Source: Candidatus Woesearchaeota archaeon (lineage in GTDB: Archaea; Nanobdellota; Nanobdellia; Woesearchaeales; SKIA01). From it: a stretch of 32,309 bases of DNA. Below, piece after piece: positions 12,864 through 24,371 of this stretch. Position 1 is the first letter of the stretch. Every line of letters starts with the position of its first letter. The translations under genes were made by a program, and so were the position numbers. The DNA lies in assembly GCA_007117065.1 (NCBI GenBank), contig SKHI01000008.1, positions 1 to 32,309 of the forward strand, given 5' to 3'. The notes under the pieces were generated by a model, which saw nothing but the letters and a program-made list of their open reading frames with translations, did not search any database and was not told the DNA's origin.

Positions 12864-13407
12864 ATGGCGTATCAGTTATACCAAGTACAAGCTGATACAC
12901 TCGATCCCATATTACAAGCGCGCCATGTTGGTGCATTCGCAGAGACACAGTATGATACTCTTGTAGTACCTACAAATCATGTGGTTTTACCTTACCCTAT
13001 CCCGCAAGGAGTTGTATTGCCGCTGATCGATACTGAGATACGATTAAGCTATGAACTTGCTGTGGCTGGTGTTATGAGAGGTGAGCTTGTATTTGATCTA
13101 AGACACGCTCAATTACTTGTATTAGATAACGAATTTACTGGCTATTTTTCTTTTATCTCGCATCAATCAGGTACTGATATACAAAGCAGTCGTTCCTTTT
13201 GCTAAACCATTAGGTGCGCAGTATGCTGTCTGTTGTATGATGGATGGTAATACTTTCGTTTATTCAGTTGGGGCTAACAATGTCTTTGACCGTCAGAAGC
13301 GTATTTCTTTATCTATGCTTGAGCAGCCGATACTGCATCCTACAGCATTCGGTCGGTTGACTATGCCGTATGGAATTATCCTAGATAAACATTGTTTGCA
13401 ATTCTAA
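12864..13407 (+). pseudogene. hypothetical ~180-aa protein interrupted by a +1 frameshift (or programmed frameshift / sequencing indel)
   Basis: The frame-1 ORF stops at 13205, but the +1 frame continues without a stop to TAA at 13405-13407: ...LDNEFTGYF|LLSRINQVLIYKAVVPFAKPLGAQYAVCCMMDGNTFVYSVGANNVFDRQKRISLSMLEQPILHPTAFGRLTMPYGIILDKHCLQF*. Removing one T from the T5 run at 13145-13149 restores an exact 181-codon ORF. Confidence 0.75.
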
Positions 13408-14084
13408 AAACTGTGTATACCTTCAAGTACGTGCTCTGCATTGAGTATGGGTTTTGATACTTTGTTGTAATCGTCAAGCCCTATTCGTGGACAGCCGGTG
13501 TTTATCCAGCATTCTATGAATGGAAAGTCGTCGAGTCCTTGCCAGTCTAGTGTGTTGGCCAGAAATACGATAAAGTTCTTTTGCGGATATTCTTTTCTCA
13601 AATGAGTAATCGCATCGGTATCTTTTTGTCCGCTTTTTGTTGTTGTTAATACACCTAGTGTTTTTGCGTGATAAAACGTGAGCATAGCTCCTTTATGCTG
13701 TTTCATTATCTTACTTATCTCTTCATGACTAAACACGTCCCAGGTGAGTCTGAGCGGGTCGTAGCGATAGGTGGGTTGGGGGTTCTTAAAGAGTATTGCT
13801 CTTGGATGAAATTCTCCTTCTCCTACGTAGAGAAAAGCTTCTACATCCGGCCATGTTTGAATACTGCATCCGAGTATTTGGCCTTCTTCGCTTGTGTGTC
13901 GTGCGCGATAGAGTTCTACTTCTTTGTCAGCGTTAAGCAGTTGTTGTTTCATATCAGCAAGTTTATTGCTGTATTGTGCTGTGGTAAAAAGTGCTATTTT
14001 TTTAGGAAGTGCTGCTAGGAGGTCCTGAGGAAATTGTATGTCTGCTTTTCTTCGTACATGAATGTGTTCTACGCGTAATACCAT
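13404..14084 (-). CDS. dph2: diphthamide biosynthesis protein Dph2-like (2-(3-amino-3-carboxypropyl)histidine synthase), lacking N-terminal domain 1
   Basis: KKIALFTTAQYSNKL...GQILGCS...EAFLYVGEGEFHPRAILF...TYRYDP...TTKSGQ...FIECWINTGCPRIGLDDY aligns with archaeal Dph2 domains 2 and 3, including their cysteines. Confidence 0.88.
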   Translation of the reverse strand: MVLRVEHIHVRRKADIQFPQDLLAALPKKIALFTTAQYSNKLADMKQQLLNADKEVELYRARHTSEEGQILGCSIQTWPDVEAFLYVGEGEFHPRAILFKNPQPTYRYDPLRLTWDVFSHEEISKIMKQHKGAMLTFYHAKTLGVLTTTKSGQKDTDAITHLRKEYPQKNFIVFLANTLDWQGLDDFPFIECWINTGCPRIGLDDYNKVSKPILNAEHVLEGIHSF

Positions 14085-16786: not shown

Positions 16787-18688
16787 ATGGCTTCTTTGCA
16801 AAGAACTCTTTCTTTTCCTGTATTATTAATCATTGGAATTAATAGTATTATGGGAACGGGTGTTTTTTTCCTACAAGCAATTGCTGCAGGCATTGCAGGT
16901 CCTGCAAGCATTATTTCCTGGGGTATCATGGCCTGTATTGCTATTGGTATGTCTTTAGTATTTGCTGAACTTTCAAGTATGTTTGATACGGCTGGTGGGG
17001 TATATGATTATACTAAGCGCGTGTTTGGGAGTTTTTCTTCCTTTCTTGTTGGCTGGCTTACTATTCTTGTGAGCATGATTACTATTGCTACGTTAGTCGT
17101 GGGTGCTATTCAGTACCTGAATCCTTCTTTGCCTGTTTCTCAGATTATTGGAATTTCTCTTTTATTTCTCTTAATTTTTAATTTCATGGCGTATCGTGGT
17201 ATGCAAACAAGTGCTGTTATGCTTGTCGCTTTTGGTATTATTACTTTGAGTGCTGTCTTGTTATTGCTCGTTCCTGGTTTCTTTTTTGTACAGCCACAGA
17301 ACTTGTCTCCTTTTTTCTCATTTGGGGTTATTCCCGTATTTATTGGGGTTTTTCTGGTTGCAGATACGTTTTTTGGCTGGCAGACTATCACTTTCTTAGC
17401 TGAGGAGACACAAGATGCTCGTCGCGTACTTCCTAAGGTGTTCATATACTCAACAGCTATCATTGCACTTCTGTGTATTCTGTTTGCGATTGTTATTCTT
17501 TCTATTATTCCTTGGTCTGAGTTGAGCGCTTCTGGGGCTCCTTTGTTATTAGTCAGTGAGCGGATTTATGGCTCGTTACTGGGAGAGTGGTATACTCTAC
17601 TCATTTATTCTGCTATTATTGGTAGTGTTGCTGGATGGATTGTTTCCTCTCCCCGTCTTCTTATGGCACTTGCTAAAGATAAAATGTTTATCCCTCGTCT
17701 GGCTGAGGTGCACCCAGTTTATAATACTCCTCACATTGCCATTTTGTTTCAGACAATTCTTACCGCATGCATTGTATTCATCGGTGCAGGTAGTTATGAA
17801 ACGCTCCTACGTCTTTCCCTTCCCCTTGTATTCCTCTTATATATGATTGTAATCATTGTCCTTATTCGTATGCGCTATGCGTTTCCGGATGAGCAGAGGT
17901 ATTTTTCTCTTCCCGGGGGAGTACTCAGTGCTTCTCTTCTCTTATGCATCATGATTTTTTTTGTTTTATTTTGGATTTTTTATGATCCTACCGCGATTTT
18001 TACAGTATTGCTTGCGGGAAGTTTTTTACTTTTGGGTGTTCCCATTTACTATTTGCTTAAGTTCACGTATGTTCCTGATTCTATATTAAATAACATGCAT
18101 TTTCTTGGTCGCCTGCATTTGCTTTTAGAAAATGTCCTTCTTCCAAAGAGTGTTCGCGCATATGTTCTTTCTCTCGTATCTCTTTCTGATAAACATGTTT
18201 TAGAATTTGGTGGAAATGTTGGAACAATGACCATGCACATTGCAGAGCAGACAAAATTGCGTGGCCGTATAACTGCCACAGAGTTTAGTTCAGCTAACGC
18301 ACACATTATTCGTCAGCGCATGAAAAAAGCAGGCCATTCCCATGTTACTGTTTTGCATGATGAGCATCATCTCAATCGCATTCATCCTTCTATTCATTCT
18401 TTTGATGTTCTTGTCAGTGTGGGTTATCTGAGTTATTTGCAGGATATGCAAAAAATTTTACGTGAGGCGCGAAATGCTATTCGTGAAAATGGCGAAGTAT
18501 TGTTTGTAGAATATATTGATTATTTTAAGTTTCTTCCCAATGCTGGTTGGACAAGCAATATTGGGCATCTTGTTCTGTTGTTTGAAGAACAAGGTTTTCG
18601 GGTTCGTATACTAAAGAAAAAAGGATTTTTTTGGAATTATCTTATCGTGCATGGTATCCGTACTGATAAAAACATTCCTTTTGTTTAG
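16787..18688 (+). CDS. APC-family amino acid permease fused to a C-terminal SAM-dependent methyltransferase domain
   Basis: N-terminal ~420 aa polytopic APC permease (INSIMGTGVFFLQAIAAGIAGPASIISWGIMACIAIGMSLVFAELSSMFDTAGGVYDYTKR). C-terminal ~180 aa Rossmann methyltransferase (HVLEFGGNVGTMTMHIAEQTKLRGRITATEFS...SFDVLVSVGYLSYLQDMQKILREARNAIRENGEVLFVEYIDY) in one uninterrupted frame. Confidence 0.92.
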   Translation: MASLQRTLSFPVLLIIGINSIMGTGVFFLQAIAAGIAGPASIISWGIMACIAIGMSLVFAELSSMFDTAGGVYDYTKRVFGSFSSFLVGWLTILVSMITIATLVVGAIQYLNPSLPVSQIIGISLLFLLIFNFMAYRGMQTSAVMLVAFGIITLSAVLLLLVPGFFFVQPQNLSPFFSFGVIPVFIGVFLVADTFFGWQTITFLAEETQDARRVLPKVFIYSTAIIALLCILFAIVILSIIPWSELSASGAPLLLVSERIYGSLLGEWYTLLIYSAIIGSVAGWIVSSPRLLMALAKDKMFIPRLAEVHPVYNTPHIAILFQTILTACIVFIGAGSYETLLRLSLPLVFLLYMIVIIVLIRMRYAFPDEQRYFSLPGGVLSASLLLCIMIFFVLFWIFYDPTAIFTVLLAGSFLLLGVPIYYLLKFTYVPDSILNNMHFLGRLHLLLENVLLPKSVRAYVLSLVSLSDKHVLEFGGNVGTMTMHIAEQTKLRGRITATEFSSANAHIIRQRMKKAGHSHVTVLHDEHHLNRIHPSIHSFDVLVSVGYLSYLQDMQKILREARNAIRENGEVLFVEYIDYFKFLPNAGWTSNIGHLVLLFEEQGFRVRILKKKGFFWNYLIVHGIRTDKNIPFV

Positions 18689-19515
18689 GTTTGTATGACA
18701 AGTCTGCTTGGTTGAGCGGAGAAGAGTCCTTCTAGTGCGCTTCGTCGTACTTGATATCTGCTGAAACGAATTTCTCCTCCCACTAGCTCTCGCAGAATGG
18801 CGTCTACTTCCTGTCTACTTCCAAGTACGTCTACTAGTCCTTTTTGGTATGCTTCAATCCCGATATAGAATTCTGCAGATTGGATCTCTGCTCGTTGTTC
18901 GTCAGTGAGGTTTCTTGCCTCCTGCACGGAGTCTAGGAAGTATTCGTGCATAGCGTCTAACTTGGCTTGCATTCGTTCTCGTTGATCATCAGAGAGTGGC
19001 ATGAACGGGCTAGCGAGGTCTTTTTGCTCTCCTGCCACGAGTCGTTCTTGTGTGATGTTGTATCTCTGAATAAATTCTGCGAAGTTAAGATAGCTTGCTA
19101 CTACTCCTATACTTCCTGTGATGCTAAATGGGTTTGCCACGATAATGTCTGCTTCGCTTGCTATCCAGTACGCTCCACTCGCTCCACTTTCTCTTATCCA
19201 TGCGACAATTGGTTTGTCGACGCGTTGTAATGTGCGTACTATCTCGTCACTTGCAACTGCACTTCCTCCCGGACTGTTTATTTCAAGCAATATTGCTTGT
19301 ACGCTTTTGTCAGCGTTTGCTTGCTCTATCCAGCGCGTTATTTGTGTGCTGCTTGCTACTTGTGTTGCAAATATTCCCTGTGGGCTCTCTACTGAGATAA
19401 CACCTTGTATTGGAATAACTGCTACTGTTCCTGCTCGGACAGGTGCTTGCGGTTGTATGAGTGCGATGAGAATGAGTACACCTATGCCTACAAATATAAT
19501 ATTTCTTGGGTTCAT
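18685..19515 (-). CDS. sppA: signal peptide peptidase SppA-like serine protease (S49)
   Basis: AGTVAVIPIQGVIS, ILLEINSPGGSAVASDEIVRTL, GASGAYWIASEADIIVANPFSITGSIGVV; N-terminal TM segment. Confidence 0.94.
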   Translation of the reverse strand: MNPRNIIFVGIGVLILIALIQPQAPVRAGTVAVIPIQGVISVESPQGIFATQVASSTQITRWIEQANADKSVQAILLEINSPGGSAVASDEIVRTLQRVDKPIVAWIRESGASGAYWIASEADIIVANPFSITGSIGVVASYLNFAEFIQRYNITQERLVAGEQKDLASPFMPLSDDQRERMQAKLDAMHEYFLDSVQEARNLTDEQRAEIQSAEFYIGIEAYQKGLVDVLGSRQEVDAILRELVGGEIRFSRYQVRRSALEGLFSAQPSRLVIQT

Positions 19516-20024: not shown

Positions 20025-20402
20025 ATGAATTGGAAATTTTGGGAAAAAAAAGAGGATGACTTTTCTTTTTCTGATATGGATTTTTCTTCTTTATCCTCGT
20101 CTGATACAAAGGAGCCTTCCTTTGACTCTTCCTTTGGTTCTTCCTCTGCACCTGACTTTAGTCAACAATTTTCTCCTCCTGCTGAGGATCGTTTCCAACC
20201 ATCTTTTCAGCAACCAGTTTCGGTCTCCAATCAATCATCTTCTTCCTCAGGCGAACGTAATCTGCAGTGGGATGTTGTTATTTCGCGTCTCGATGCAATC
20301 AAGATCCAACTCGAGCATATTTCTTCTCGGCTGGATAAGTTAGAACAAAAAGAGGTTTCGTCATCTCCTACTCAGAGAGGTCCCTGGTATGCGCAACGCT
20401 AG
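20025..20402 (+). CDS. small Ser/Phe-rich low-complexity protein with C-terminal coiled-coil
   Basis: N-terminal acidic/Ser/Phe-rich segment (DDFSFSDMDFSSLSSSDTKEPSFDSSFGSSS) then amphipathic DVVISRLDAIKIQLEHISSRLDKLEQK; overlaps the lspA start. Confidence 0.7.
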   Translation: MNWKFWEKKEDDFSFSDMDFSSLSSSDTKEPSFDSSFGSSSAPDFSQQFSPPAEDRFQPSFQQPVSVSNQSSSSSGERNLQWDVVISRLDAIKIQLEHISSRLDKLEQKEVSSSPTQRGPWYAQR

Positions 20403-20826
20403 TTGGTTGCTTGTCGTCAGTTTTTTTTTCTTACTTGATCAGTTTACGAAACTTCTTGCTCTATCCTTTGCGCCTCCCTGCGTACAACAAGCAGGCGTTT
20501 TTTGTCTTATTTTTAATTCAGGTGCTGCTTTTGGCATTCTAAGCGGTTTTAATACTGTACTACTTCTTCTCTCTATACTAGCATCACTCATTCTTTTATA
20601 TGCCTTACATACTGTTTCGTCGCGATTTGATAAGTGGGGCGTGTCTTTCGTGCTTGCGGGCGTATTAGGTAATGGTTTAGATCGAGTCCTGCATGGTGCT
20701 GTCGTTGATTTTATTCGTATAGGTTCGTGGCCTGTATTTAATGTCGCAGATATGTGTATCGTCTGCGGGGTATGTCTGTTGCTTCTTCAGAATTCTTCGT
20801 CTAAATCGTCTAAGTCATCTAAATAG
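20389..20826 (+). CDS. lspA: lipoprotein signal peptidase (signal peptidase II)
   Basis: [62 protein letters not shown]: LspA motifs including both catalytic Asp contexts (GNxxDR and FNxAD). Confidence 0.93.
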
Positions 20827-21095
20827 CCGTTTTGTTGTAGCCATGCCACTTGATGAGGCTTGTATTTGTAAATAATATCTCCTTTTTCATCGCCACCAAA
20901 CTCCCATGGTTCTACAAGCACGGTATCTTTTTCTCGTACCCACAGGTAGCGTTTCATACGCCCAGGAATTCTGCATGTTCGCGTTTTTCCATCTACGCAC
21001 CGTACTGTGCTTCTACTTGCTCCTAGTCGCGCATCTAATATTCCGAGTATTTCGCCTTCTTTTGGGATGCGCACTCGTGTGTGTTCTTCTTCCAT
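20787..21095 (-). CDS. eif1A: translation initiation factor aIF1A
   Basis: [54 protein letters not shown]...[20 protein letters not shown]. Confidence 0.95.
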
Positions 21096-21113
21096 ACTGT
21101 GTGTCTTTTTTTC

Positions 21114-21125
21114 GTATTTATAAAC
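21114..21125 (-). promoter_or_regulatory. putative TATA box for aIF1A
   Basis: Reverse strand GTTTATAAATAC starting about 20-30 nt upstream of the aIF1A ATG (21095). Confidence 0.6.
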
Positions 21126-21150
21126 TTGTCTTTTCTTTTTCTCCGTAAGC

Positions 21151-21161
21151 CTTATAAATAC
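21151..21161 (+). promoter_or_regulatory. putative TATA box for the LSM-L37e operon
   Basis: CTTATAAATAC about 20-30 nt upstream of the LSM ATG (21181), consistent with a leaderless transcript. Confidence 0.6.
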
Positions 21162-21180
21162 TTTCTTGTTCTCTATTTGT

Positions 21181-21402
21181 ATGGATCCGACAAGACCGTT
21201 AGATGCTTTACAAGTAATGCGTGATAAGCGCGTTATTGTTGAGCTTAAAAGTGGACGCCAATTCGATGGGGTTTTGAAAGCATTTGATATTCATATCAAT
21301 ACGGTGCTTTTTGATGCTCGTGAACTTGGTGTTGAAGGCGCTTCTCATGAACGTCTTTTTCTTCGCGGAGACAGTATATTATTGGTGACACCTAAACAAT
21401 GA
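21181..21402 (+). CDS. archaeal Sm/LSM-like RNA-binding protein
   Basis: [48 protein letters not shown]...[12 protein letters not shown]; Sm1/Sm2 motifs. ATG at 21181 preferred over the ORF track start at 21166. Confidence 0.93.
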
Positions 21403-21566
21403 CAAAAGGAACTCCGAGTATGGGTCGCAAGAGCGGTAAGAAGACACACATCAAATGTCGTCGTTGTGGACGAAACGCATTTCACATGAGTCATAAAGTG
21501 TGTGCGAGTTGCGGATATGGAAAGTCTAAAAAACTGCGTTCTTATGTCTGGGCTACTCGCATTTAG
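21399..21566 (+). CDS. rpl37e: 50S ribosomal protein L37e
   Basis: Own translation: [55 protein letters not shown] (55 aa, below the ORF-track cutoff); CxxC...CxxC zinc ribbon; ATGA overlap with LSM. Confidence 0.96.
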
Positions 21567-21677
21567 TTTCTCTAATTAATCTGTTATGTTTCTGTATGCT
21601 TTTTAGTATTTTTATTACTGAGAATTTTTTTATCGTAATCGACAAATTTATAAATCACTTCTGTGGTTATAGAAACT

Positions 21678-22193
21678 ATGATGTATAAAAGAGGGAGTTT
21701 ATCCATTTCTACAAACGCTATTGTTGTGCTTATTATTGCTGTGATTATGCTTGGCTTAATTGTTGGTCTTGTGACAAATGCATTTAGTAATGTAGAAGAT
21801 CGTTTATTTGAACAAATCGCTGGTACAGAAAACCCTGCCCCGAGCGTAAGTACTGCTGAGCCAGTCACGATAAGTCGTCCAAGTATGCGTGCAAGTAGAG
21901 GTTCTTTGCAGGGTGTTAAAGTTCGTGTTCTCAACACGCTTGATAGCAACCTCCAAAATGCTCGTCCGTTCCTAGATTGTAGTCAAGGATCCGAGAATGA
22001 ACCTATTGTGGATCATGCTAATTCTCAAGTTATTCCTCAAATAATTGACTCAGGTGCCCAGGATGAATTCGTATACTTATTCAGAATCAAATCAGACGCT
22101 CCTCAGGGCACTCGTCTTTGTCAGATGAGAGTTCAAGAAGGCGAAGCGGCACAACCTATTCGTGGAGTTCAGTTTACAATTGAGGTATCCTAA
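21678..22193 (+). CDS. pilin-like secreted/membrane protein with class III (type IV pilin-like) N-terminus
   Basis: From ATG 21678/21681: MMYKRGSLSISTNAIVVLIIAVIMLGLIVGLVTNAF: short basic leader followed by a single long hydrophobic helix, soluble C-terminal domain. Confidence 0.7.
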   Translation: MMYKRGSLSISTNAIVVLIIAVIMLGLIVGLVTNAFSNVEDRLFEQIAGTENPAPSVSTAEPVTISRPSMRASRGSLQGVKVRVLNTLDSNLQNARPFLDCSQGSENEPIVDHANSQVIPQIIDSGAQDEFVYLFRIKSDAPQGTRLCQMRVQEGEAAQPIRGVQFTIEVS

Positions 22194-22414
22194 TGGCAAA
22201 AAAGAAATTAACCCGCAGTGAAGAGTTTGAGATATTAAAGTTAGTCCTTGATAAGTTCCTCTGGGCAGGTCTATTCATCCTGTTGTTTGGATTTTACCTA
22301 CTGTTTACTGACGCTGACTCGCTTTCTCGTGGACTTTGGGTCATGGGTGCTGGTGCCATCATTCTCGTCTTGTTTATGGGCGTCTTGATTAAGGAGTATG
22401 AGATTATTCGATAG
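22193..22414 (+). CDS. small two-TM membrane protein (73 aa)
   Basis: Overlaps both flanking genes' ends in a tight three-gene cluster; two hydrophobic segments. Confidence 0.7.
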   Translation: MAKKKLTRSEEFEILKLVLDKFLWAGLFILLFGFYLLFTDADSLSRGLWVMGAGAIILVLFMGVLIKEYEIIR

Positions 22415-22979
22415 GCGTGCTATAGAGCTTGCTACAAACATTATTGTTATGCTTATTGTAGGCATACTTATCTTCGTTCTCTCTCTAGGCATTACGTTTG
22501 GTGTCTTTTGTGCGACTCAGGAGATTAGTGAGGATGTTTCTCTTCAGAACGAGCGTCGCGTCGAGCAATTATTGTCTGGTGGTGGTCGTGTATCTGTAGC
22601 TGATAATACAAAAGTAGCGCAGATGCGCGGGAATATCTTATGTGGTATGAGTCGTGAGCGTACCGCTGATTTCGTATTAGGTATAGGCAACGATAATCCA
22701 AATACGCCTCAAGATTTTCTCTTTAATGTTACTCGAGTCCAACCTCCTCATGAAGGTCATGTGCAGTATGTGCAGTCAATACAGCCTCAGAATGAGATCT
22801 TTAGATTTGCCGCGCGCGAGTTTAGTACGCATTCCCTTCTTTTTGTTCTTCCCGGCGATGCCGTTGTTGATCAGCAGCGTATTTATCGCGTAACAGTATT
22901 TGTTCAAACGGATGATCTTGACGGAAATCCGATGCAAACGCCTTATGGCGTTCAACAACTGTATATTACTCCTCGTTAA
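22398..22979 (+). CDS. second pilin-like protein
   Basis: MRLFDRRAIELATNIIVMLIVGILIFVLSLGITFGVF: short basic leader plus ATNIIVMLIVG matching STNAIVVLIIA of the 21678 gene. Confidence 0.68.
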   Translation: MRLFDRRAIELATNIIVMLIVGILIFVLSLGITFGVFCATQEISEDVSLQNERRVEQLLSGGGRVSVADNTKVAQMRGNILCGMSRERTADFVLGIGNDNPNTPQDFLFNVTRVQPPHEGHVQYVQSIQPQNEIFRFAAREFSTHSLLFVLPGDAVVDQQRIYRVTVFVQTDDLDGNPMQTPYGVQQLYITPR

Positions 22980-23602
22980 ACAAGCTTTTTGAGTGCTTGT
23001 GCACTATTTTTTGGTTTGCTAATAACTCCAGAAGCGAGGAGTACTCCTACTGCTCCCAGTCGTAATGCTGTTTGTACATCTTTTTTATTTTTTACTCCTG
23101 CTCCTACGAGTAAGGGTATGGGTATTTCTTGTACTGCTTGTGTGATAATGTCTGGGTCTGCTTCTGTTATAGATACTTCTCCTCCAATGAGTTCGGGTGG
23201 TTCAAGAGCGATATAGTCTGGTTTGTACCGCGCTATTTTCTTTGCTTCTTGAATGCTATCGGCGCAGACTATTGTTTGTAGTCCTACTTCTTTGCATCGC
23301 TTGACTATTTCTTTGAGTACTTTTTGTGAAACTTTTTTTTCTGCGTGATTTATCAGTGTGCCCCTAGCTCCTGCTTCTTTTACTGCTTCTGGTAGTACAT
23401 GGCCTGTGTGGCTTCCATACGTTATTGCATCCACGTGTTGTGCGTACACAGTTACTCCTGCTCGTTTTGCGCTACGTATATCTGTGTTTTGTACTGCGAT
23501 CCACGCGCCTACCTCTTTTGCTGCGGTGTACAGTTCTGCTAGTTCTTTACCGGTGCCTTTTTGGTAGGTTTTTGTGTTTACTACTATGAGTGGTTTTTTC
23601 AT
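22976..23602 (-). CDS. tpiA: triosephosphate isomerase (archaeal type)
   Basis: MKKPLIVVNTKTYQKGTG...VYAQHVDAITYGSHTGHVLPEAVKEAGARGTLINHAEKK...YIALEPPELIGG...LLVGAGVKNKKDVQTALRLGAVGVLLASGV. Confidence 0.95.
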   Translation of the reverse strand: MKKPLIVVNTKTYQKGTGKELAELYTAAKEVGAWIAVQNTDIRSAKRAGVTVYAQHVDAITYGSHTGHVLPEAVKEAGARGTLINHAEKKVSQKVLKEIVKRCKEVGLQTIVCADSIQEAKKIARYKPDYIALEPPELIGGEVSITEADPDIITQAVQEIPIPLLVGAGVKNKKDVQTALRLGAVGVLLASGVISKPKNSAQALKKLV

Positions 23603-24371
23603 GTGTTTCTCCTTTCTTAAAAAATTCTCGTATGTCTCTTTTGTAGCGTGTATATAGAACGATGATTGCTCCTATTCCTATTCCTAAACTGAGTAGTTGG
23701 CCCATTTTTAATCCCAGGAGTATGGCAGTATCTTCTCTCCAATAATTTACTATGAATCGCAGTATTGCATACATGAGTGTGAATATCCAAAAAATGAACC
23801 CTGGCGTATATTTCTTGCGCGCCCAGAGTGCTAGTGTGGTTCCGAGAAGAAAAAGATTTTTTATTGCTGCATACAGTTGTGCTGGGTGTCTACAAACATC
23901 ATCATATGTTGGAAAGACGACACACCAGCTATGTTGTGAAACAGTTCCTATTATCTCTGCATTGATAAAGTTTGTAATTCTTCCAAGAAAAAGTATTCCT
24001 CCTGTGTAGAGTGCACCAATGTCTGCTAGTTCCCACATGTTTTGTTTGTATTTTTTACTCCAGAAATACAGGCCTGTTACGAGTCCGATAAACCCTCCAT
24101 GAAAGCTCATTCCTCCGTTCCACACCGCAAAGAATTCTTGTATACTAAACAAGTCTGGTCGATAAAACAAAAAGAAGAATACTCGTGCCCCAATAATCAT
24201 TCCCAGCAGTACTGCTAAGAGCAGGCTATCTCGTTGTTTCTCGTCGAGGTTGCTGTGTTTTTTTAAGGCGTAATAGAGAAGAAGAAAACCTAGAGCGTAG
24301 ACAATTCCATAGTAGCGTATTTCAAGCGATCCAATACTCAGGAATACTGGGTCTATGTTGTGTACAAACAT
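23547..24371 (-). CDS. lgt: prolipoprotein diacylglyceryl transferase
   Basis: IRYYGIVYALGFL; AVWNGGMSFHGGFIGLV; LFLGRITNFINAEIIG; DDVCRHPAQLYAAIKN; LRFIVNYWRED: Lgt signatures. Confidence 0.92.
   Translation of the reverse strand: MFVHNIDPVFLSIGSLEIRYYGIVYALGFLLLYYALKKHSNLDEKQRDSLLLAVLLGMIIGARVFFFLFYRPDLFSIQEFFAVWNGGMSFHGGFIGLVTGLYFWSKKYKQNMWELADIGALYTGGILFLGRITNFINAEIIGTVSQHSWCVVFPTYDDVCRHPAQLYAAIKNLFLLGTTLALWARKKYTPGFIFWIFTLMYAILRFIVNYWREDTAILLGLKMGQLLSLGIGIGAIIVLYTRYKRDIREFFKKGETHEKTTHSSKHKNLPKRHR

Follow-up and report, generated by a model that had tools for sequence, protein, structure and literature searches.

The stretch of DNA described here (the window; all 32,309 nucleotides that were analysed, contig SKHI01000008.1) belongs to the genome of a Candidatus Woesearchaeota archaeon (907 kb, 97.02% complete, 0.26% contaminated) and carries lspA and lgt, the genes for two enzymes of bacterial lipoprotein maturation, each of which is present in that genome in single copy. 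The lspA gene (20389..20826, + strand) encodes a lipoprotein signal peptidase II of 145 amino acids with catalytic aspartates D98 and D121, and lgt (23547..24371, − strand) encodes a prolipoprotein diacylglyceryl transferase of 274 amino acids. Both open reading frames (ORFs) are intact, and an earlier note on this DNA, made from the letters alone, had placed them at exactly these positions. In profile searches Lgt matched PF01790 with an E-value of 1.1e-55 and scored 158.1 bits against TIGR00544, above the equivalog cut-off of 118.9, and LspA matched PF01252 with an E-value of 1.6e-29 and scored 81.6 bits against TIGR00077, again above the cut-off (73.95). The closest relatives of solved structure are Escherichia coli Lgt (5azb, 2.3e-32) and Staphylococcus aureus LspA (6ryo, 1.7e-14). 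AlphaFold2 models built from archaeal alignments only had a mean predicted local distance difference test score (pLDDT) of 92.5 for Lgt and 91.3 for LspA. When these models were compared with the PDB using Foldseek, 5azb was the sole significant match for Lgt (E 2.4e-15, template modelling (TM) score 0.70), and LspA matched 6ryp, 5dir and 6ryo with TM scores to the query of 0.76–0.86, the best being 6ryp (E 8.4e-9, TM 0.86). The TIGRFAM cut-offs, the residues described below and the folds thus bear out the identities proposed in the earlier note, including both catalytic aspartate motifs of LspA.

Six residues are absolutely required in E. coli Lgt, namely Y26, H103, R143, N146, G154 and R239 (PMC13251419), and all six are present in the window protein, as Y21, H91, R131, N134, G142 and R205. 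Five more are reported to be essential for viability in E. coli (G99, G142, G145, Y235 and R246; PMC13251419); the window Lgt has four of these (G87, G130, Y201 and R212), with G145 replaced by T133. Overall, alignment shows that the equivalents of Y26, G99, H103, G104, G142, R143, N146, E151, G154, Y235, R239 and R246 are retained and that the protein departs from E. coli at two positions, G145 (T133) and E243 (N209), the latter substitution being found also in a few archaeal relatives. The archaeal Lgt alignment comprised 67 rows, of which 60 are distinct (seven are repeat fetches, and a second row with T133 is the window sequence repeated). It can be seen from this alignment that Y26, G99, G104, R143, N146, E151, G154 and R239 are invariant, and that H103 is replaced by glutamine in two rows. 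When aligned to S. aureus LspA, the window LspA retains D17, K21, N43, N95, D98, R99, N118 and D121; across the archaeal LspA rows D121 is invariant and D98 is at least 90% conserved. The loss of essential residues that the earlier note had named as grounds for doubt is therefore confined to a single position, G145 of Lgt. Compared with bacterial Lgt (E. coli, 5azb/5azc; TIGR00544), the window enzyme has the same fold, the same catalytic residues including H103, and the GGMSFHGG, GR-x-x-NF and RHPxQLY motifs, but has a shorter head region, the two substitutions just described and a position in the tree apart from the sampled bacterial sequences. Monoderm Lgts are reported to fail in E. coli strains depleted of Lgt (PMC13251419). 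Likewise, the window LspA shares with the bacterial enzymes (S. aureus 6ryo/6ryp, Pseudomonas aeruginosa 5dir; TIGR00077) the aspartyl dyad, the NxGAAFG, GNxxDR and FNxAD motifs and the four-helix fold, but is encoded in an archaeal genome and is only about 30% identical to the solved enzymes.

A profile search for the two families covered 279 genomes from the phylum of the window organism, all at least 80% complete, 166 of them from the window's order, whose named relatives are Candidatus Woesearchaeota, and 113 from the rest of the class. The resulting counts are lower bounds; the PF01790 search missed one control genome, that of Bacillus subtilis, a species that has lgt. Across the phylum Lgt was detected in 207 and LspA in 199 of the 279 genomes, with both present in 189, Lgt alone in 18, LspA alone in 10 and neither in 62 (Fisher odds ratio for co-occurrence 65, p 9e-35, which serves as a guide only because related genomes are not independent). 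Within the order, 155 of the 166 genomes have Lgt, 151 have LspA and 164 have at least one of the two; a smaller set of 40 relatives from the order gave 34 and 33, respectively. In the rest of the class Lgt was found in 52 and LspA in 48 of the 113 genomes, 47 having both and 60 neither, with single-gene genomes numbering five for Lgt and one for LspA, so that here the two genes have been gained or lost almost together. Neither PF01790 nor PF01252 matched any archaeon among 14 control genomes. The general statement of the earlier note that most archaea lack Lgt and LspA stands, but with a systematic exception, since the pair is near-universal in this order and common in the rest of its class; the order-wide occurrence also corrects the picture of the pair as an oddity of one archaeal chromosome. 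As a separate observation, extra Lgt copies occur in the genomes designated G105, G029, G006, G026 and G034, with six matches in G105 and four in G029; some of the copies lie in reading frames about 460 amino acids long.

A tree of Lgt was built from 60 archaeal sequences, 21 bacterial sequences and two from viral contigs, a scan of which gave five Lgt matches, two of them full-length; the bacterial sequences were drawn for the most part from collections of plasmids and phages, and the Candidate Phyla Radiation and most bacterial phyla lay outside the sample. The archaeal and bacterial sequences did not intermix. A quick tree placed diderm bacterial sequences within an archaeal grade, but a tree in which the archaea were constrained to one clade was better than this free quick tree by 47 log-likelihood units (p 0.91 in the approximately unbiased test), and the archaeal Lgts are compatible with a single clade. 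Sequences from inside and outside the order were not cleanly separated (six changes), which could reflect either exchange between orders or poor resolution. The simplest reading of these sequences would be one old entry into the archaeal class followed by mostly vertical descent, and one transfer long ago, at the base of the class, is likely and forms part of the explanation that we favour. The Lgt phylogeny called for in the earlier note thus fits one archaeal clade, and names no donor phylum with the bacteria sampled.

We next consider candidate substrates. A search for hydrophobic N-terminal signal peptides with a lipobox at their end was applied to 332 kb (37%) of the 907 kb window genome (G000) and to parts of six other genomes. 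In the G000 sample the lipobox position was occupied by cysteine in seven proteins, where the cysteine frequency would lead one to expect 1.05 (p 9e-5), examples being MRVVFLCLLVLVLASC (followed by STPSQS), MRSYLVVILAIALFAAGC (followed by TTTNEA) and IACTLLFLAAGC (followed by ASSDGN). Three of the seven are neighbours on one contig (L098 6219–10227), and the domains found among them include an FKBP-type isomerase, a cytochrome b5-like domain and PKD/Ig repeats. The earlier note had said that a genome empty of lipobox proteins would speak against its proposal; this sample of the genome holds several. A first, stricter scan gave a weaker signal (3 of 61 sites in G000) and a scan of the short flanks around the lgt and lspA loci gave five against 1.03 expected; both are kept as lower bounds. 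The genome G013, which has the pair, yielded seven lipobox proteins against 1.32 expected, and the sampled parts of four genomes with neither enzyme yielded none (G042 and G122), one (G062) and three (G065). A further family, not picked from the window genome, points in the same direction. The PF04392 substrate-binding proteins number eight in six of the 279 phylum genomes, and seven of the eight have a clear lipobox, all seven in genomes with both enzymes. The eighth, in G225 (L247), starts with a plain hydrophobic helix and has no lipobox; G225 has LspA and no detected Lgt.

Taken together, these observations make it highly probable, in our judgement, that a working bacterial-type lipoprotein maturation pathway operates in the order Woesearchaeales and its class, where it would be old and resident. 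Several points weigh against this conclusion. Threonine at position 145 of Lgt (E. coli numbering) is unique to the window among the archaeal Lgts aligned, and by comparison with the E. coli enzyme it would be the one real mark against Lgt function in this species. Ten genomes have LspA without a detected Lgt, and 18 show the reverse. The lipobox search was home-made rather than SignalP, and few genomes were sampled for the comparison of carriers of the pair with genomes that lack it. Moreover, G062 and G065 lack both enzymes and yet encode proteins with textbook lipoboxes (L157, L162, L148 and L151), so a lipobox alone is no proof that the Lgt/LspA pathway is used; this may point to a second lipidation route in these two genomes, such as AliA/AliB.

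The substitutions G145 to T and E243 to N also enter into a different explanation, in which the proteins would be divergent relatives of Lgt and LspA that do another job, for example attaching a different lipid group to other cysteine proteins, or would be decaying in this species. The unclear supply of a canonical lipid donor in cells without GGGPS and PlsC (see below) and the absence of Lnt would fit such a view. Against it, the equivalents of Y26, R143, N146, E151, G154 and R239 do not vary among archaeal Lgts and H103 is kept in all but two rows, the catalytic aspartates of LspA are conserved as described above, the genomes concerned are enriched in lipobox proteins, and both ORFs are not only intact but kept by genus mates. 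We consider this explanation improbable, and favour a working maturation pathway.

The surroundings of the two genes bear on how they came to be in this genome. lspA is overlapped at its start by a 125-amino acid ORF directly upstream (20025..20402, +) that is without a Pfam match and adjoins lspA also in the same-genus genomes G001 and G002. Its convergent neighbour is the gene for aIF1A (20787..21095, −; profile match), and the gene for an archaeal-type triose-phosphate isomerase (tpi; 22976..23602, −) overlaps the 3′ end of lgt; these two are genomic context and lie outside the pathway. The window also carries sppA, for an S49 signal peptide peptidase of 276 amino acids (18685..19515, −), which scored 160.7 bits against TIGR00706 (cut-off 155.45). 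The groupings orf125-lspA-aIF1A-SppA and isoleucyl-tRNA synthetase-lgt-tpi-orf193-orf176 are both kept in G001 and G002, so that sppA lies beside lspA in these two and close to it in three genomes counting the window, and the lgt-tpi and lspA-aIF1A adjacencies persist in G038, which belongs to another family.

It could be argued that the contig is bacterial contamination, or was mis-binned into a metagenome-assembled archaeal genome: most of the relatives are themselves metagenome assemblies, and the two families were not matched in the archaeal control genomes. This we regard as almost inconceivable. The archaeal surroundings of lspA and lgt noted earlier, namely S8e, aIF1A and an archaeal-type triose-phosphate isomerase, were confirmed by profile search, the neighbourhoods are conserved across families, the archaeal proteins do not intermix with the sampled bacterial ones, and the genes recur in about 200 genomes. 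Carriers of the pair include the single-contig genomes G013 (1.30 Mb), G101 (0.83 Mb), G073 (0.74 Mb) and G104 (1.16 Mb), so that a binning error cannot be the general cause, and contamination was rejected on this ground. Had the window lineage alone recently acquired lgt and lspA from a bacterium, this would account for two genes of otherwise bacterial families lying only about 3 kb apart in the window. Such a recent transfer was also rejected, and appears extremely improbable given the order-wide distribution, the grouping of the window Lgt with those of its genus mates (support of 99 in the Shimodaira-Hasegawa-like approximate likelihood ratio test) and the neighbours held in common with G001 and G002. 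The closeness of the two genes is in fact peculiar to the window genome: they are 3.2 kb apart here, and 12 kb to 1 Mb apart in 18 other genomes that have both on one contig. An operon of lgt and lspA was also rejected, since the genes are convergent, separated by 3.2 kb and far apart elsewhere. The old, resident pair thus remains our preferred account.

Other features of the window are recorded here in their own right. Two ORFs between lspA and lgt (21663–22193, + and 22398–22979, +) each encode one N-terminal hydrophobic stretch and have no Pfam match; in G001 and G002, too, they adjoin tpi and lgt. A YkuD-domain protein (1926–2588, −; PF03734, 1.4e-18) has as its nearest match ElsL, an L,D-carboxypeptidase of cell-wall recycling (119.8 bits, cut-off 270), and its sequence would make it an archaeal enzyme of a peptidoglycan-acting type. 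A 633-amino acid ORF (16787–18688, +) combines an amino acid permease (residues 8–402) with an S-adenosylmethionine methyltransferase domain (about 467–576) in an unusual fusion, and a Dph2-like protein of 226 amino acids (13404–14084, −) aligns to profile positions 97–290 of 308 only, being short at its N-terminus.

Unlike the setting of bacterial Lgt, the host here is an archaeon without detected GGGPS, PlsC or Lnt. Searches of the 97%-complete window genome gave no match to the Lnt N-terminal domain (PF20154), which was the outcome of the scan for Lnt proposed in the earlier note, and no PlsC family member (PF01553), a family present in 19 of the 40 order genomes. For geranylgeranylglyceryl phosphate synthase (GGGPS; PF01884) there was no convincing match in the window genome or in the other 39 of the order set; weak, partial matches in the order were read as other TIM barrels and set aside. 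Because the window genome has neither GGGPS nor PlsC, the core lipid is probably scavenged. The same genome encodes a protein resembling CDP-archaeol synthase (CarS-like; L194 3952–4491, PRK04032 118.3 bits, cut-off 148) and a CDP-alcohol phosphatidyltransferase that is closest to bacterial PgsA (L088 3488–4018, TIGR00560 100.7 bits, cut-off 109.1; 39.9 bits against archaetidylinositol phosphate synthase). As both score just below the equivalog cut-offs their substrates are uncertain; between them they could build a phosphatidylglycerol-like head group onto a core lipid obtained from outside. Our best guess is accordingly that the donor is a core lipid taken up and finished by these two enzymes; it may be diacyl, diether or mixed.

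The suggestion in the earlier note of an archaetidylglycerol-like or host-derived donor keeps its standing as a proposal, but misses a third option, that of bacterial-type phospholipid genes. In addition to the PlsC family members counted above, a cluster in the same-genus genome G001 (L191; G001:C64) encodes a full-length bacterial-type CdsA, a PlsC-family protein, an AcpS-like protein and a protein resembling archaetidylinositol phosphate synthase. Scattered bacterial phospholipid genes have been noted in Woesearchaeota in a published survey (PMC6431249), as have matches resembling cardiolipin synthase (PMC8141893). More tentatively, and with the balance somewhat against it, we suggest that woesearchaeal Lgt may use as its donor an archaetidylglycerol that the CarS-like and PgsA-like enzymes assemble on a host-derived core, transferring the isoprenoid diether glyceryl group of this archaeal lipid to the lipobox cysteine, so that one enzyme family would handle both kinds of lipid, independently of AliA/AliB.

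By analogy with the bacterial enzymes, from which the order of steps is taken, substrate proteins would bear a Sec-type signal peptide ending in a lipobox. With a lipid resembling phosphatidylglycerol or archaetidylglycerol as donor, Lgt would attach a di-lipid-glyceryl group to the lipobox cysteine, LspA would then cleave just before the lipidated cysteine, and SppA would probably degrade the freed signal peptide. A di-lipidated lipoprotein would result, sitting on the outer side of the membrane with its N-terminus free or otherwise capped, since no Lnt was found. Lgt and LspA without Lnt also make up the Lnt-less lipoprotein pathway of some bacteria, which differs in its cell, here archaeal, and in its donor, here probably scavenged or archaeal in type. 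In Haloferax volcanii, lipidation involves AliA/AliB (Hong et al. 2025, as cited in PMC12186497 and PMC13251419), which lack homology to the bacterial enzymes according to PMC13251419. The outcome is the same, a lipid on a lipobox cysteine in an archaeon (there diphytanylglyceryl), whereas the window lineage has the bacterial enzymes themselves.

A 2026 mBio paper gives Lgt as absent from archaea, and no archaeal homologues were known according to PMC2945643 (2010) and PMC12186497 (2025). A literature search covering Lgt, LspA, signal peptidase or diacylglyceryl in DPANN, Woesearchaeota or Nanoarchaeota found no report, subscription papers, including that of Hong et al. 2025 on archaeal lipoprotein prevalence, lying outside its scope. 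Automatic annotation in public databases probably names these proteins already. The enzymes are ordinary members of known families, and what is new is the host lineage, the breadth of occurrence and the question of the donor.

At the level of sequence, some 200 archaeal genomes contradict the absence of Lgt from archaea, and nearly all members of one order of DPANN archaea, symbiotic or dependent on a host, have the pair. This gives a testable account of how surface proteins are anchored in these cells; some of these proteins probably make contact with the host or import nutrients. The finding also raises the question of whether Lgt uses a bacterial-type or an archaeal-type lipid in a cell without core-lipid synthesis of its own, and makes the archaeal Lgts natural variants for the study of Lgt donor specificity.

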